Below are positions 26,265-36,808 of a DNA stretch of 64,000 nucleotides, in pieces. This stretch comes from Spiroplasma melliferum (GTDB lineage: Bacteria; Bacillota_I; Bacilli_A; Mycoplasmatales; Mycoplasmataceae). Made by a program: the position numbers and the translations under genes. Each line of letters opens with the position of its first letter. The first letter of the stretch is position 1. The DNA is taken from contig CP029202.1 in the NCBI GenBank assembly GCA_005222125.1, forward strand, positions 248,001 through 312,000, given 5' to 3'. The notes beneath the pieces are model-generated. The model had not been told where the DNA came from, ran no database searches, and worked only from the letters and a program-made list of their open reading frames with translations.

Positions 26265-27080
26265 ATGGCATCATTTTTATCAAAATTAGAAACATTTGAT
26301 TCAAAGAATTTTACTAAAAAAGAAAATGAAATTATTAAATATATTAAAGAAAATATGAAAGAAGTAACAACAATGAATATTGAAGTTTTAGCACAGCAGG
26401 TAAATACTGGTTATAGTGCAATATATGGTTTATTACGAAAAATGCAAATTAATGGTTATCGAGACTTTTTAATTGCGATTGCTGCTGATATTGAAATTAA
26501 ATCATTAGATTTTGAAAATATGGAAAGTCTAATGAAGAAGACATATTTTGATATTCTTAATCAAAATGATACGATGATTAATAATGAAAAGATGAATCAA
26601 ACAATTAATGCAATTAAAGGAGCATATCGAATTTTTGTAATTGGAATGGGTTCAACAAATGCTTTATCACAAACATTAGCGTTAGAATTATATCGTTTTG
26701 GCTTTAATGCTTTTAATCTAAATGAGAATGAAGAAGACTTAATGGTTCGTTCTCGTTTTATGAATAAAAATGATTTAATTTTAGCCTATTCATTATTCGG
26801 TGATAATGAAGCAGTTAATAAAGCATTAACAATTGCAAAAGAAAAAGGAGTAACTATTGTAGTAATTTCTGGGAAAGATATGTCAAAAGCAGTTAAATTA
26901 GCGAATTGGTCACACATTATTTCAACCCCAAATCAACGGGTAAATGATCATAAAATTTATGTTAACAAATTATTACCTTGAATGTATTTTACTGATGATT
27001 TAATTAATAAAGTTTGATCATCAGATATTGTTGATAAAGATTTTGTAATGGCTCAACAAGACAATCGTTGAGATTATTAA
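26265..27080 (+). CDS. RpiR-family transcriptional regulator (first of two)
   Basis: 271 residues. The N-terminal helix-turn-helix (about 1-75: TMNIEVLAQQVNTGYSAIYG, KMQINGYRDFLIAI) is followed by a SIS sugar-phosphate-binding domain (about 120-235) with IFVIGMGSTNALSQTLALEL and VVISG. Such proteins sense phosphosugars or amino-sugar phosphates and control their catabolic genes. It follows tsaD by five bases with AAAGGAGAC upstream, so it shares that transcript. Its target cannot be read from the sequence. Two Trp codons near the C-terminus are TGA. Confidence 0.9.
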
Positions 27081-27084
27081 AACA

Positions 27085-27915
27085 ATGGATAATATTTCAA
27101 TTCTCTCAAAGTTATCAATGATTCAAGGAACTTGCACAAAAAAAGAAATTAAAATTGCAAATTATATTCGTGAAAATATTCATAATATTCGAAATCTTAA
27201 AATTGAAGATTTGTCAAAAGCAACTGGAATAGGTTATTCACCAATTTATTCTTTAATTAAAAAATTAGGCTTTATTGGTTATCGTGATTTTATTATTGCA
27301 ATCGTTGCAGAACAAGAACGTTTGGAAACCAATAATTTGTATTTAGATGCAACAGAAAATATTTTTTTATATTATCAAGATATGTTAGAACGTAATCAAC
27401 AGACTTTTGATAATGTTAAAGTTTTAGAAACAGTTACTTTACTAAAAAAAGCGAAAGTAATTTATTTAGCTGGTTTGGGAATTTCATCGTTAGCAGTAAA
27501 AGAATTAGCTACCCGTTTATTTAGTTTTGGGTTTACTTGTAGTTTGTTGGTGGAAAATGAAAACAATATTATTACCCGTGCGAGTTTAATACAACCAGAT
27601 GATTTATTAATTTGTATAAGTTTAGAAGGAAAAACAATGGCTGTGATAGCAGCAGCTAAGGAAGCTAAAAATAATGGGGTAAATGTAATTGGTATTACAT
27701 CAAAATATAATTCGGATTTATCAAAATATACCGATATTATGCATACTATTGTTTCTTCAACTTTGTATGAAAAAAATGAAATTTTTATTTCTGCTTTATT
27801 ACCGTTAATATATTGAAATGATAATTTAATTAAAACTCTTTTATCTGTTGATAAAGAGCATCAATATTTAGAAAATAGAATTAAAAGTAATAAAATTTTA
27901 AAAAAATATTGTTAA
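27085..27915 (+). CDS. RpiR-family transcriptional regulator (second of two)
   Basis: 276 residues and the same architecture as its upstream neighbour: HTH (LKIEDLSKATGIGYSPIYSL, KKLGFIGYRDFIIAI) then SIS (VIYLAGLGISSLAVKELATR, GVNVIGIT). The two differ enough that the duplication is old. It starts four bases after the first gene with no visible ribosome-binding site, so translation is probably coupled. The C-terminus contains one TGA Trp. Confidence 0.88.
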
Positions 27916-30221: not shown

Positions 30222-30539
30222 ATGAACGAAGTTATTAGACAATTACGAATTCATAAAGGATTAACTCAACGTGAATTAGCCAAAATGTCAGGGTTACAAC
30301 AATCAACTATTTGTCGAATTGAAAAAGATTGTTCAAAAACAAGTTGAAATAAAATTTTAAAATTACTCGTTGCACTAAAATTAGATGTTAAAAAATTTAT
30401 TGATAAATTATATACATACAATGAATATAAAGTATATGAGTTTTTATCATTAATTATTGATAACCCCAAAATTCGTAAAGAGCTTGATCAAAATCCACGA
30501 TTATTAGCATTAAAAGTATTACGAATTTTTACTAATTAA
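30222..30539 (+). CDS. XRE-family helix-turn-helix protein
   Basis: 105 residues. Residues 1-60 are a Cro/CI-type HTH: MNEVIRQLRIHKGLTQRELA, KMSGLQQSTICRIEKD. The rest is a helical tail with no recognisable ligand or protease domain. GAAAGGAAC precedes the start. One Trp is TGA. It is transcribed alone, ahead of the cysteine-rich pair, and could control either itself or that pair; no operator is obvious. Confidence 0.85.
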
Positions 30540-30597: not shown

Positions 30598-30624
30598 AAA
30601 GACCTATTAGGTCTTTTATCTTTT
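30598..30624 (+). terminator. intrinsic terminator after the XRE regulator
   Basis: AAAGACCT, loop ATT, AGGTCTTT followed by TATCTTTT. Confidence 0.85.
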
Positions 30625-30646: not shown

Positions 30647-30655
30647 TGATATAAT
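30647..30655 (+). promoter_or_regulatory. extended -10 promoter of the cysteine-rich pair
   Basis: TG-A-TATAAT, 47 bases before the TTG start of the first cysteine-rich gene. Confidence 0.5.
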
Positions 30656-30701: not shown

Positions 30702-31190
30702 TTGATTTGAGATTATTATTTTATCTTTGATGGTAATGGTGAAGAACAAAATTTACGATGTATTTGTAAAACAGCTGCTGATGCAGAACAAGCATTAGAG
30801 GATTGTTATTTAGATAATAAATATAATGTAGATATTATTAAAGCAATTTCATTTTGTTTAATATTTACATTTGATAGTACAACTGATAATTACGAATTAA
30901 ACAAACAAGGAACAGAAAGTTTTATTAAAAAATTATCAATTTGTCAACAATGTAATCGTGTTAAAAATAAATTAGATCGCCATCAACTTTGTTCAGAATG
31001 TGAAAGTGAATTAGTTGGTTTGGAAACTTTTCAATGTGATTTATGTAAAAAACACCGTCTTGTTCGAGATGACTTTAATCGCGAATTATTTGGAAAATTA
31101 TTAGTAAATAATAAAGAATATATAATTTGTTTTAAATGTGCTGCACAAAATTTTCAAAAGGACGCAAAAACAGAAGGGATGAAAAGATAG
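30702..31190 (+). CDS. cysteine-rich (four CXXC) protein A, unknown function
   Basis: 162 residues, not recognised. It starts at TTG 30702, supported by GAGGAA eight bases upstream; the third codon is a TGA Trp. The N-terminal 85 residues look like a small alpha/beta domain (WDYYFIFDGNGEEQNL). The C-terminal half has four CXXC pairs, CQQC-X12-CSEC-X11-CDLC-X27-CFKC, enough to bind two zinc ions. No signal peptide or membrane segment. The stop TAG overlaps the GTG of the next gene, which has the same architecture. Confidence 0.75.
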
Positions 31191-31660
31191 TGAATACAAT
31201 TAAAAATTTATATATTGTTTTTTATACTGATAATGCGCATTATCCTAACCAAGGGAAAATTGTTAAAGTTTTTACTGATAGTGAACCAGCAAGAAAATAT
31301 TTATTGACAAAAGTTAATTTAAACGGAAAAAAAATTACAAAAGATAATAAATGAATTTTAAAAGTGTATAGTTATGTTGGAGCTAATGATTTTTATGAAT
31401 ACTCAAAATGAGAAACAACTCAATTTAAAAATATGGTTGGCAATTGTATTCATTGTCATAAATATTTTTTACGAGAAAATAATGCTAATATGTGTGATGA
31501 GTGTTTAGGGCAAGTAAAACAAGGTTTAAAAGAATGTGAAGTTTGTCATAATTTTTTTAACCCAGTTGGGATTAAATTTGTTTCAAATGGTGATGTTTTT
31601 CCATCTTTAGCTTGTCAGGAATGCACACAAACATTATTACAAAATTTAAATATTAAATAG
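31190..31660 (+). CDS. cysteine-rich (four CXXC) protein B, unknown function
   Basis: 156 residues from GTG 31190, overlapping the stop of protein A by one base. The N-terminal domain (NLYIVFYTDNAHYPNQGKIV) again looks alpha/beta, and the C-terminal half has CIHC-X12-CDEC-X10-CEVC-X22-CQEC, nearly the spacing of protein A. The two are therefore paralogues that arose by tandem duplication and then diverged. Two Trp codons are TGA. Zinc-ribbon pairs of this kind bind nucleic acid or mediate protein contact, but I know no named family for this layout. Confidence 0.75.
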
Positions 31661-31735: not shown

Positions 31736-32585
31736 ATGTTAAAGTGGAATACTAAAATTTTATTTTATGTACGGTTAAATGTTTTATTTTTAATTTTATT
31801 TTTTTTAATTACTGATTTAGTATTAGCAATAATTAGTCCGCAACCCCAATTTTCTGATTTAGGATATGCAGAACGAGTATCAAATTATTATTCGTTTTTT
31901 ACAACGCAAACTAATTATATTGTTGCTGTCTATTTTTTCATTTATTTATTTGAAAATAAGTTTAAAATTCAAAGTCCTAGTTATTTAATTAAATTAGCGG
32001 TGACAACATATATTACAATTACAATGGTAGTTTTTTTGACTTGGAATTTTTACAAGTAAACAAGATGCTAATCAATACAATGTATATGCTTGAATATCAA
32101 CAATTGTTTTGCGCTTAGTAATTCCAATTAGTATGATTATTAGTTATATTTTAACAGCAGGTACTTTTCAATATAATTTAAAACAACATTATAAATTAGC
32201 ATTATGATTAATTTTAATTTATCCAGTTTGTTATTTTATTGTAATTTTAATTCGAGGAACATTACGTCATTTAGATGATAGACCATCTGATACTTGATAT
32301 CCTTATTTTTTTCTTAATGTTTATCAAGAGTGAGGATGATTAATTTTAACTTTTTCTTTTATTTGTATTTTAACTTTATTTATTGGTTTACAATATTTAT
32401 ATATTTTTTTAAATAATAAGTTATATTCGAAATATCAGGGAGAAACATTAAACAAACGAGTAAATGAAAAAATATTTGGTATTAGTGGAAAAAGAATGAC
32501 ATTGCATAAAAAAGATGTTTTCATTCCACAATCAGTGCTAAATGTTTTTAAAAATGATTCTTCTGAAGGAGGAAAATATGATTAG
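31736..32585 (+). pseudogene. Pr6Pr-like multi-pass membrane protein, frameshifted
   Basis: The reading frame from ATG 31736 (AGGAGG upstream) stops at TAA 32057-32059 after 107 residues, but the next frame continues without a stop to TAG 32583 (SKQDANQYNVYAW and on). A single extra base in T7 (about 32031-32037) or T5 (32047-32051) would explain it. Joined, the product is about 280 residues with five or six membrane segments and resembles Pr6Pr-family proteins: FFTTQTNYIVAVYF and the late RGTLRHLDD...YPYFFLNVY. It may be a decayed gene, a phase-variable gene or a sequencing error. Many Trp codons in the second part are TGA. Confidence 0.7.
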
Positions 32586-35013: not shown

Positions 35014-35862
35014 ATGTGTGATAAGAAATTTTCAATTCCCAAAGAATTTATTAAAAATAATAAAAAGGTTTATAAACTTGCTGAAACAGCTGATGTTATT
35101 ATTGAAATTGTTGATGCAAGAATTGCACATTCTGGTGGTAATCTTTTAAATTATGCAAAATTAAATGATGTGAAAAGAATAATTTTATTTTCAAACACAC
35201 AAAAAGCTGATGTTGAACAAACAAAAAAATGAATGGAATATTATCAAAGCCAAGGAATTTATTGCCAAATGTTATTGTGTCATGATGAGCAAACTAGTAA
35301 AGAATATCAGCAGTGTTTAGCCAATTTTAAGAAACTTTTAAAAAAGTATGCTAATAAGAAAATATTAATTATTAGTTTACCAGATAGTAATAAAGAGATT
35401 TTATTAGAAAAAATATTTGATAATAATGAATCCTTTGAGAAAGGAAAAGGAATATTTTTTGCTCGTGAAAAGATTTATCGTTATAATAATATTGAATTTA
35501 TTGACACAGTACCAATTACGGGGATTAATTTTTCTCAACCAAATGTTTATTGAAATACACAAATTTTAGGGCTTTTTAAAATAGAAGATAATACGGAAAT
35601 AGTAGCAATTAAAGCATTCCAATTATTATTAACAAAATATCAAAAAAAATTAGAAACAGCATATAGTGTCCGGATTCAACCAAAATCATCAGTAAAACAA
35701 ATTGTTAAAGAATTTATTAAATTAATGACAACAAATTTGTCTTTACCAGAAGGTGAAACAACCGATAATTTATTTCTTTGTGCTAAATTTTTAGAAGATA
35801 TTAAAAAAGGGAAAAAAATTCCCGCAATTTCATTAGAATGAGTTGAAGATTACGTTAAATAA
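35014..35862 (+). CDS. RbgA/YlqF-like pseudo-GTPase paralogue
   Basis: 282 residues, aligning along its length with RbgA, encoded just downstream. The start of the circularly permuted GTPase core is similar (ADVIIEIVDARIAHSGGNLL against IDLVIEIVDSRIPFSSSNPL), and the C-terminus KKGKKIPAISLEW matches the family end. The nucleotide motifs are gone: G4 NKKD is SNTQKAD, G1 GIPNVGKS is SLPDSNKE, and G3 DTPG is DTVPITG. The N-terminal FPGHMAK is also missing. The frame is intact with AAGGAGGA upstream, so it is likely expressed; a binding role without GTP hydrolysis is an inference. Confidence 0.8.
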
Positions 35863-35917: not shown

Positions 35918-36808
35918 ATGACAACAAATATTCATTGATTTCCTGGCCACATGGCAAAAGCAATTAAACAAATTGATGAACAAAGTAAATTAATTGATTT
36001 AGTAATTGAAATCGTTGATAGTCGAATTCCGTTTTCCTCTTCAAATCCATTAGTTGATAACTTACGGGGTTTAAAACCAAAGTTAATTATTTTAAATAAA
36101 AAAGATTTAGCGGATCCAGTTGTGATTAAGGCGTGACTTGAATATTATCAATCTCAACAAATTGCTGTTTTACCATTAGATAGTAAGCATGGCAATATTA
36201 CAAAATTAATTATTGAAAAAATTTATCATGTTTTATCTGGTAAAATTGAGCGCGACCAAAATAGAGGAATTAAGTCACCAAAACTAAAAGTAATGGTGAT
36301 TGGGATTCCTAATGTTGGAAAATCTACTTTTATTAATGCTTTAATAAAGCGAAATTCAACTCGAGTTGGTAATAAACCAGGTGTAACAAAAGGTCAACAA
36401 TGATTAAAATTAAATCATCAAATTGATTTAGTTGATACTCCGGGAATTTTATGACCCAAAATTAATGACCCACAAGTAGCAATAAATTTAGCTTTTACTC
36501 GTTCAATCAAAGAAGATATTTTACCAAAAGAAGAAATTTGTTTAGCTGCAATAAAGTGAATGTATAAACATTATTTTTCTTTGTTAGCTAAGCAATATCA
36601 TCTTACAGCAAGTGACAATTTTGATGTAACAGATGAACAAAAACTTTTTGAGTTATTATTAATAATGCAACAAAACCGTTTTCATAAAGTTAATGAAGAT
36701 AATGTTAATGATATTGTTACTGATTTTTTAAATAATTTATGAAATAATAAGTTTGGGTTAATGTCTTTTGAGTTTCCACCTGGAAGAGGAATATTTAATT
36801 ATGAATAA
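35918..36808 (+). CDS. rbgA: ribosome biogenesis GTPase RbgA (YlqF)
   Basis: Circularly permuted GTPase required for late 50S assembly. The 296-residue product has the N-terminal WFPGHMAKA, G4 NKKD (about 59-62), G1 GIPNVGKS (about 129-136), the G2 Thr in GVTKGQQ and G3 DTPG (about 172-175), then the helical C-terminal domain. Four Trp residues are TGA. AAAGGAGGA precedes the start. The 3' end overlaps the rnhB start by eight bases. Confidence 0.95.

Follow-up and report, generated by a model that had tools for sequence, protein, structure and literature searches.

Two small overlapping genes of Spiroplasma melliferum, called A and B here, each encode a protein that ends in four CXXC motifs. 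What kind of protein do they make, why are there two of them, and on what might they act? The genes lie within a window of 64,000 nucleotides (the whole stretch of DNA analyzed), which is part of a 1.41 Mb Spiroplasma genome; its nearest named matches are S. phoeniceum and S. poulsonii. A reading made earlier from the letters of the window (the sequence-only reading) took them for a tandem duplication of no known family, kept as a two-subunit zinc protein. The features of the locus are collected in Table 1.

Table 1. Features of the A-B locus, numbered by position within the window
Feature	Position	Strand	Remarks
XRE-type HTH gene	30222..30539	+	PF01381 E 6e-9; upstream neighbor, tie to the pair unsupported
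Terminator-like hairpin	30598..30616	+	Between XRE gene and A
Extended -10 promoter-like element TGATATAAT for A-B	30647..30655	+	55 nt before A
Gene A	30702..31190	+	162 aa, TTG start, TAG stop (code 4)
Gene A domains			Residues 1-80, acidic N-terminal alpha/beta domain; four CXXC motifs at residues 81, 97, 112, 143
A finger 1 (CX2C-X12-CX2C)	30942..31013	+	Likeness to C-terminal zinc finger of isoleucyl-tRNA synthetase (IleRS)
TAGTG stop/start overlap of A and B	31188..31192	+	TAGTG or TAATG in 11/11; probable translational coupling
Gene B	31190..31660	+	156 aa, GTG start sharing one base with the stop of A
Gene B domains			Residues 1-85, basic N-terminal alpha/beta domain; four CXXC motifs at residues 86, 102, 116, 142

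The gene pair and its conservation

The one-base overlap and the four motifs in each gene were borne out, and the spacers measured as the sequence-only reading had written them: CX2C-X12-CX2C-X11-CX2C-X27-CX2C in A and CX2C-X12-CX2C-X10-CX2C-X22-CX2C in B, in both cases the same in all 11 rows of the alignments described below. The reading was also right that A would go unseen under the standard code. Besides beginning with TTG, the gene has TGA as its third codon, and no open reading frame of at least 60 amino acids covers it when table 11 is used. Spiroplasma uses code 4, so the TGA poses no puzzle for annotation set to that code. The mechanical list of open reading frames offers an upstream ATG (31136) as an alternative start for B. 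We favor the GTG at 31190, since it gives the one-base overlap that all 11 genomes with the intact pair retain (as TAGTG in seven of them and as TAATG, with ATG at that position, in the other four). To judge from its form, this overlap probably couples the translation of A and B. Both proteins are small, and neither has an obvious membrane part.

The A and B proteins of the window were used as queries against a sample of 14 genomes of the genus. A was found in 12 of them (intact in 11) and B in 11, and it is the same 11 genomes that carry both genes intact. One further genome (G007) has an A broken by an internal TAA and no B, while two (G011 and G012) have neither gene. Whether A and B always occur together was a check proposed along with the earlier reading, and within this sample it came out in the pair's favor: a genome has either both intact genes or no intact copy of either, and none of the 14 has an intact A alone or an intact B alone.

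Alignments were made of the 11 intact A sequences and the 11 B sequences, leaving out the broken copy of A in G007. None of the eight motif cysteines varies in the 11 rows of A or in the 11 rows of B, and many positions other than cysteine are likewise invariant. Selection was assessed by the Nei-Gojobori omega for 12 chosen pairs of genomes, giving values of 0.08 to 0.44 for A and 0.04 to 0.52 for B. In each case, 10 of the 12 pairs fell below 0.25, and the highest value came from a very similar pair of genomes. It is well supported that A and B both encode working proteins; with 11 intact pairs, invariant cysteines, and purifying selection, the pair is more than an accident of reading frames.

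The N-terminal domain of A (N-domain) contains four cysteines beyond those of the motifs, C20, C22, C35, and C52 (window positions 30759-30857), that are invariant in all 11 rows of A and absent from B. Judging from this conservation, they could provide an additional metal or redox site.

The proposed tandem duplication is supported. B is found with A by BLASTP (E 2e-6 for that single comparison, 26% identity over 116 amino acids), and the profiles of the two, compared by hhalign, match with a probability of 94.3%. All copies of A are at least 59% identical to A of the window, and all copies of B at least 60% identical to B of the window, but the A rows are only 21-28% identical to B of the window. 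Since identity within A and within B far exceeds identity between them, the duplication predates the split of these Spiroplasma species.

The order asnS, XRE gene, A, B is found in all 11 genomes with the intact pair. On the 3' side of B lies a gene for a membrane protein (31736-32585), frameshifted in the window and open in G001 (273 amino acids). Several genomes, that of the window included, have it in split or broken form, and it has relatives, often in multiple copies, in 58 of 60 genomes of the family, with no Pfam family over its cut-off. A remnant of this membrane gene still precedes rpsP in G012 and G007. That A-B is intact beside decaying neighbors marks it as a conserved unit.

Two other neighboring pairs of genes in the window deserve mention in their own right. 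Two consecutive RpiR-type regulators (HTH_6 plus SIS) occupy 26265-27915 and are about 34% identical, as judged by cross-hits in other genomes; only one of the two was found in the corresponding region of G008. Farther on are two consecutive, similar-looking open reading frames, 35014-35862 and 35918-36808. The sequence GIPNVGKS and a match to MMR_HSR1 (E 8e-19) mark the second as a ribosome-type GTPase. Neither a GTPase match nor a P-loop of this kind is present in the first, which may be a degenerate copy of its neighbor that has nonetheless been kept.

The search for relatives

Matches of A and B to Pfam, NCBIfam, PHROGs, and PADLOC were at the level of chance and none was significant, so, within these libraries, the earlier claim that the pair belongs to no known family stands. 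By sequence, the best matches in the PDB had E-values of 0.42 (A) and 0.17 (B). A combined profile of A and B found two zinc-finger chains in the PDB (E 0.0026 and 0.0058), over some 27 residues, and these are dismissed as coincidences of CXXC. DUF6076 (PF19553) scored 14.8 bits with B, under its cut-off of 23.5, and reached an E-value of 1 or less with two of the 11 B rows; it was not found in 149 genomes or in 14 controls. A search of the literature found no paper describing the pair.

Relatives outside the genus were sought at two levels, by searching 298 genomes of the order with the A and the B alignment separately and 392 genomes of the phylum with the combined profile (18 of the 22 rows). 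The search of the order gave matches outside the genus with E-values of 1 or less in 10 genomes for A (best E 0.002) and in six for B (best E 0.011). Nine of these 16 were inspected (six of the 10 for A, three of the six for B), along with an additional match in G009. None has the cysteine pattern, and they are rejected as homologues; several look by eye like deacetylases, lipoproteins, or ATPases. In the search of the phylum, 13 of the 392 genomes gave matches with E-values of 0.1 or less: nine within the genus, one (G094) within the family and judged unrelated, and three from other families of the class. In every one of the last three (E 3.9e-4, 0.0027, and 0.061, each for a single genome), the matched segment is the zinc finger at the C-terminus of IleRS, identified by eye from its CxRCW motif and the context; the places where the family zf-FPG_IleRS matches in the 14 genomes of the genus (see below) agree with this. 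No relative of A-B was recognized outside the genus among the 298 genomes of the order or the 392 of the phylum.

A mobile origin was also considered. A has no match in the phages and plasmids searched, B has none in the phages and a single weak one in the plasmids (E 0.1, the level of chance), and neither has a relative in the viral contigs. Within those collections, an origin from phage or plasmid is rejected. Across everything searched, A-B is an orphan pair, restricted to its genus and conserved there, a pair of proteins that belongs to no searched family and yet is intact in 11 of the 14 genomes.

How good is the resemblance to IleRS? By hhalign, the C-terminus of IleRS matches A with a probability of 79.6% (E 1.5e-5, a value for this comparison alone) and B with 34.8%, while the N-domains alone give no match to it. 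Against a profile of six IleRS fingers, finger 1 of A scores 18.5 to 25.1 bits, matched by 0 to 2 of 2000 cysteine-preserving shuffles in the four of 11 rows tested. This profile is biased, in that three of the six are the outside fingers that had been selected for matching A-B. Finger 2 of A and both fingers of B have no comparable score on it. A profile was also made solely from the nine IleRS fingers of Spiroplasma, a set chosen without regard to likeness to A, and here the score was reached by 667, 1221, 3, and 25 of 5000 shuffles for rows 0, 4, 7, and 9, respectively. Given this mixed outcome, whether the likeness shows depends on the species: some have it clearly, others not at all. PF06827 itself has 32 listed places in the 14 genomes, none of them at the A-B locus even at an E-value of 10, and the 12 of those 32 places that were inspected look like IleRS and Fpg. 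The finger of Fpg was tried as well and set aside: A does not match it, and finger 2 of B has a weak match, its score equaled by 3 to 57 of 2000 shuffles. We take the relation of finger 1 of A to the IleRS finger to be one of resemblance rather than of membership.

The N-domains may have a relative of a different sort. Their predicted secondary structure is strand-strand-helix-strand-strand-helix in A and similar in B. AlphaFold2 models of the proteins are of low confidence, with mean pLDDT values of 45.2 (A) and 51.7 (B). They were compared with up to 1000 chains drawn from Foldseek, a comparison that barely covers the zinc halves. With the low-confidence model of B, entries for ERH take ranks 1-9 (Z 4.2-4.6, rmsd 4.3-6.0, 70-79 residues aligned), and with that of A, they take ranks 3-11 (Z 4.2-5.5, rmsd 3.3-4.2, 67-72 residues aligned), with Top7 and AcrIIC5 ahead of them; these entries are one family, to be counted once per model, and Z values below 8 are common by chance. 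In Foldseek, A matches 6s2w with an E-value of about 1, and the viral and PDB lists hold no match with an E-value of 0.001 or less. On these models, the N-domains come nearest, with low confidence, to the ERH/RAGNYA arrangement.

As a sequence relative, ERH is rejected on profile and hhalign, and conserved residues and length (compared below) speak against membership in its family too. PF01133 is not listed by hmmscan for A or B at E-values up to 10 and has no match up to that value at the A-B locus in the 14 genomes; its best matches in the genus (G000, G002) are to a membrane-type protein elsewhere. Comparison with human ERH by hhalign gave P 0.09 (A), 0.43 (B), and 0.51 (both), which amounts to no support, and an alignment of the three sequences was uninformative. 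Human ERH has no relative in the viral contigs.

What the pair might do

The two N-domains carry opposite charges. Their net charge is -5 to -9 in A and +4 to +6 in B, in all 11 rows of each, while that of the zinc halves is +2 to +5 in A and -2 to +1 in B. The background was taken from 82-residue segments of those open frames in the window that are at least 150 amino acids long. Among 202 such segments, 21 have a charge of -5 or lower and 62 have a charge of +4 or higher, and a random ordered pair would show the pattern of A and B in about 3% of cases, so it is uncommon but not rare. Considered alongside the overlap and the fact that the two genes are lost jointly, the charge pattern makes a heterodimer formed through the N-domains the simplest reading, and we infer that the heterodimer is obligate. 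The earlier idea that the duplicates were retained as two subunits thus gains circumstantial support, from co-occurrence, the invariant overlap, and a charge opposition that is found in 11 of 11 genomes.

The explanation we favor, at a probability of about 0.38, is that A-B is a zinc heterodimer that binds RNA or a ribonucleoprotein (RNP). A and B would together make up a small cytosolic zinc protein, one subunit each, and they go back to a tandem duplication older than the divergence of the Spiroplasma species. A single promoter and coupled translation would lead to their production in a fixed ratio, the acidic N-domain of A would pair with the basic N-domain of B, each needing the other, and the C-terminal half of each would hold two Cys4 zinc sites, CX2C-X12-CX2C followed by CX2C-X22/27-CX2C, around which it would fold. 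The heterodimer might then bind structured RNA (tRNA or rRNA) or an RNP partner, perhaps as a nonessential factor in translation or RNA metabolism. An RNA target is proposed because A has the more basic of the two zinc halves and because finger 1 of A resembles the RNA-recognition finger of IleRS. In the passage of PMC4861432 that concerns it, the C-terminal zinc motif of IleRS is called essential for aminoacylation, and the title of a 1996 paper that the passage cites mentions RNA recognition. Counting against this explanation are the fingers of B, which have no clear match to IleRS, the zinc half of B, which is not basic, and the low confidence of the structure models. The loss of the pair in three of the 14 genomes argues against an essential role in translation.

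Perhaps the target is instead a protein. The pair could be an adaptor that binds no nucleic acid, in which the two zinc modules of each subunit make a scaffold like that of LIM or B-box proteins and dock a partner specific to Spiroplasma, be it the cytoskeleton, RNA polymerase, or the membrane. Tandem Cys4 modules commonly serve as protein adaptors, and restriction to one genus suits a lineage-specific partner. The combined profile also gives matches in the PDB to LIM, ZZ, RING, and TRIM21 chains, weak and nonsignificant. However, no adaptor family matched significantly, and the best resemblance outside the genus is to a finger that recognizes RNA, so that we consider an adaptor possible but doubtful.

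A factor of the transcription machinery, binding RNA polymerase or a sigma factor as Gin/CsfB (PF10764) does in sporulating Bacillota, is improbable. A does have a similar short unit of paired cysteines, and the Gin profile touches its residues 81-111, but it does so at the level of chance (E 5.8) and far under its cut-off (7.4 versus 27 bits). Moreover, we know of no sporulation sigma factors in Spiroplasma on which a Gin could act.

The XRE gene that the sequence-only reading noticed just upstream is real, and one might suppose that it forms with A-B a three-gene regulatory or toxin-antitoxin-like module, in which the XRE protein controls or neutralizes A-B. The genes are adjacent and on the same strand, the HTH gene is detected in the same 11 of 14 genomes as A-B, and it resembles regulators of the HipB antitoxin type, though below the cut-off (38.5 versus 71.65 bits). 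The implied link is nonetheless not supported. A-B has a putative extended -10 element of its own, TGNTATAAT, 31-57 nt upstream of A in all 11 intact loci (and missing in G007), and a strict scan for a hairpin followed by T residues finds a terminator-like site upstream of the pair in eight of the 11. In G004 and G005, the HTH gene is detected only as broken pieces, seemingly frameshifted, beside an intact A-B. Neither A nor B has a match in PADLOC, and the pair occupies a single conserved locus and is not mobile. Such a module is very unlikely.

Least likely of all is a mere buffer of metal or redox state, whose cysteines would store zinc or sense oxidation with no specific macromolecular target: the eight motif cysteines per chain and the four further conserved ones of A would suit it, but invariant positions other than cysteine and spacing fixed to the residue are the marks of folded fingers, not of metallothioneins.

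Comparison with known systems

Finger 1 of A is like the C-terminal zinc finger of IleRS (zf-FPG_IleRS, PF06827) in having the form CX2C-X12-CX2C with a stretch KL(D/N) between the pairs. Unlike that finger, it follows an unrelated N-domain and precedes a second Cys4 module, within a small protein that comes as one of a pair. With LIM domains, A and B share two successive zinc modules per chain, and there is a weak match to LMO4 (E 0.29). However, LIM domains have 2 residues between their zinc modules, and the linker in A and B is 10-11 residues long. Gin/CsfB shares with A the small CX2C-X-CX2C unit but, unlike A and B, consists of a single module.

The N-domains of A and B are like ERH (PF01133, a RAGNYA-type fold) in the predicted order of their strands and helices, and a tyrosine that precedes the last helix in both corresponds, by eye, to one in ERH. 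According to the portion of a 2023 review that describes the family (PMC10605862), ERH is 100 to about 110 amino acids long with no added domain, dimerizes via its sheet, and conserves residues H3, L7, Q9, D66, and Y79. Unlike ERH, the proteins studied here (162 and 156 amino acids) have an added zinc half, and their first strands (WDYYFIFD in A and KNLYIVFY in B) do not have ERH's conserved His and Gln. RAGNYA folds are described in part of PMC11044054 as widespread in RNA- and DNA-binding proteins.

It would be a long shot to suppose that A and B are the first bacterial ERH-like proteins, forming a split, obligate A-B dimer with two RAGNYA-type sheets face to face and with zinc fingers of the IleRS type for recognition of RNA. 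If this were so, then A-B would be a prokaryotic relative of a eukaryotic platform for RNA processing, or else a striking convergence upon it. The same portion of the review calls the ERH fold unique and reports ERH to be absent from bacteria, and an N-domain that proved to be ERH-like would bear on the origin of that fold.
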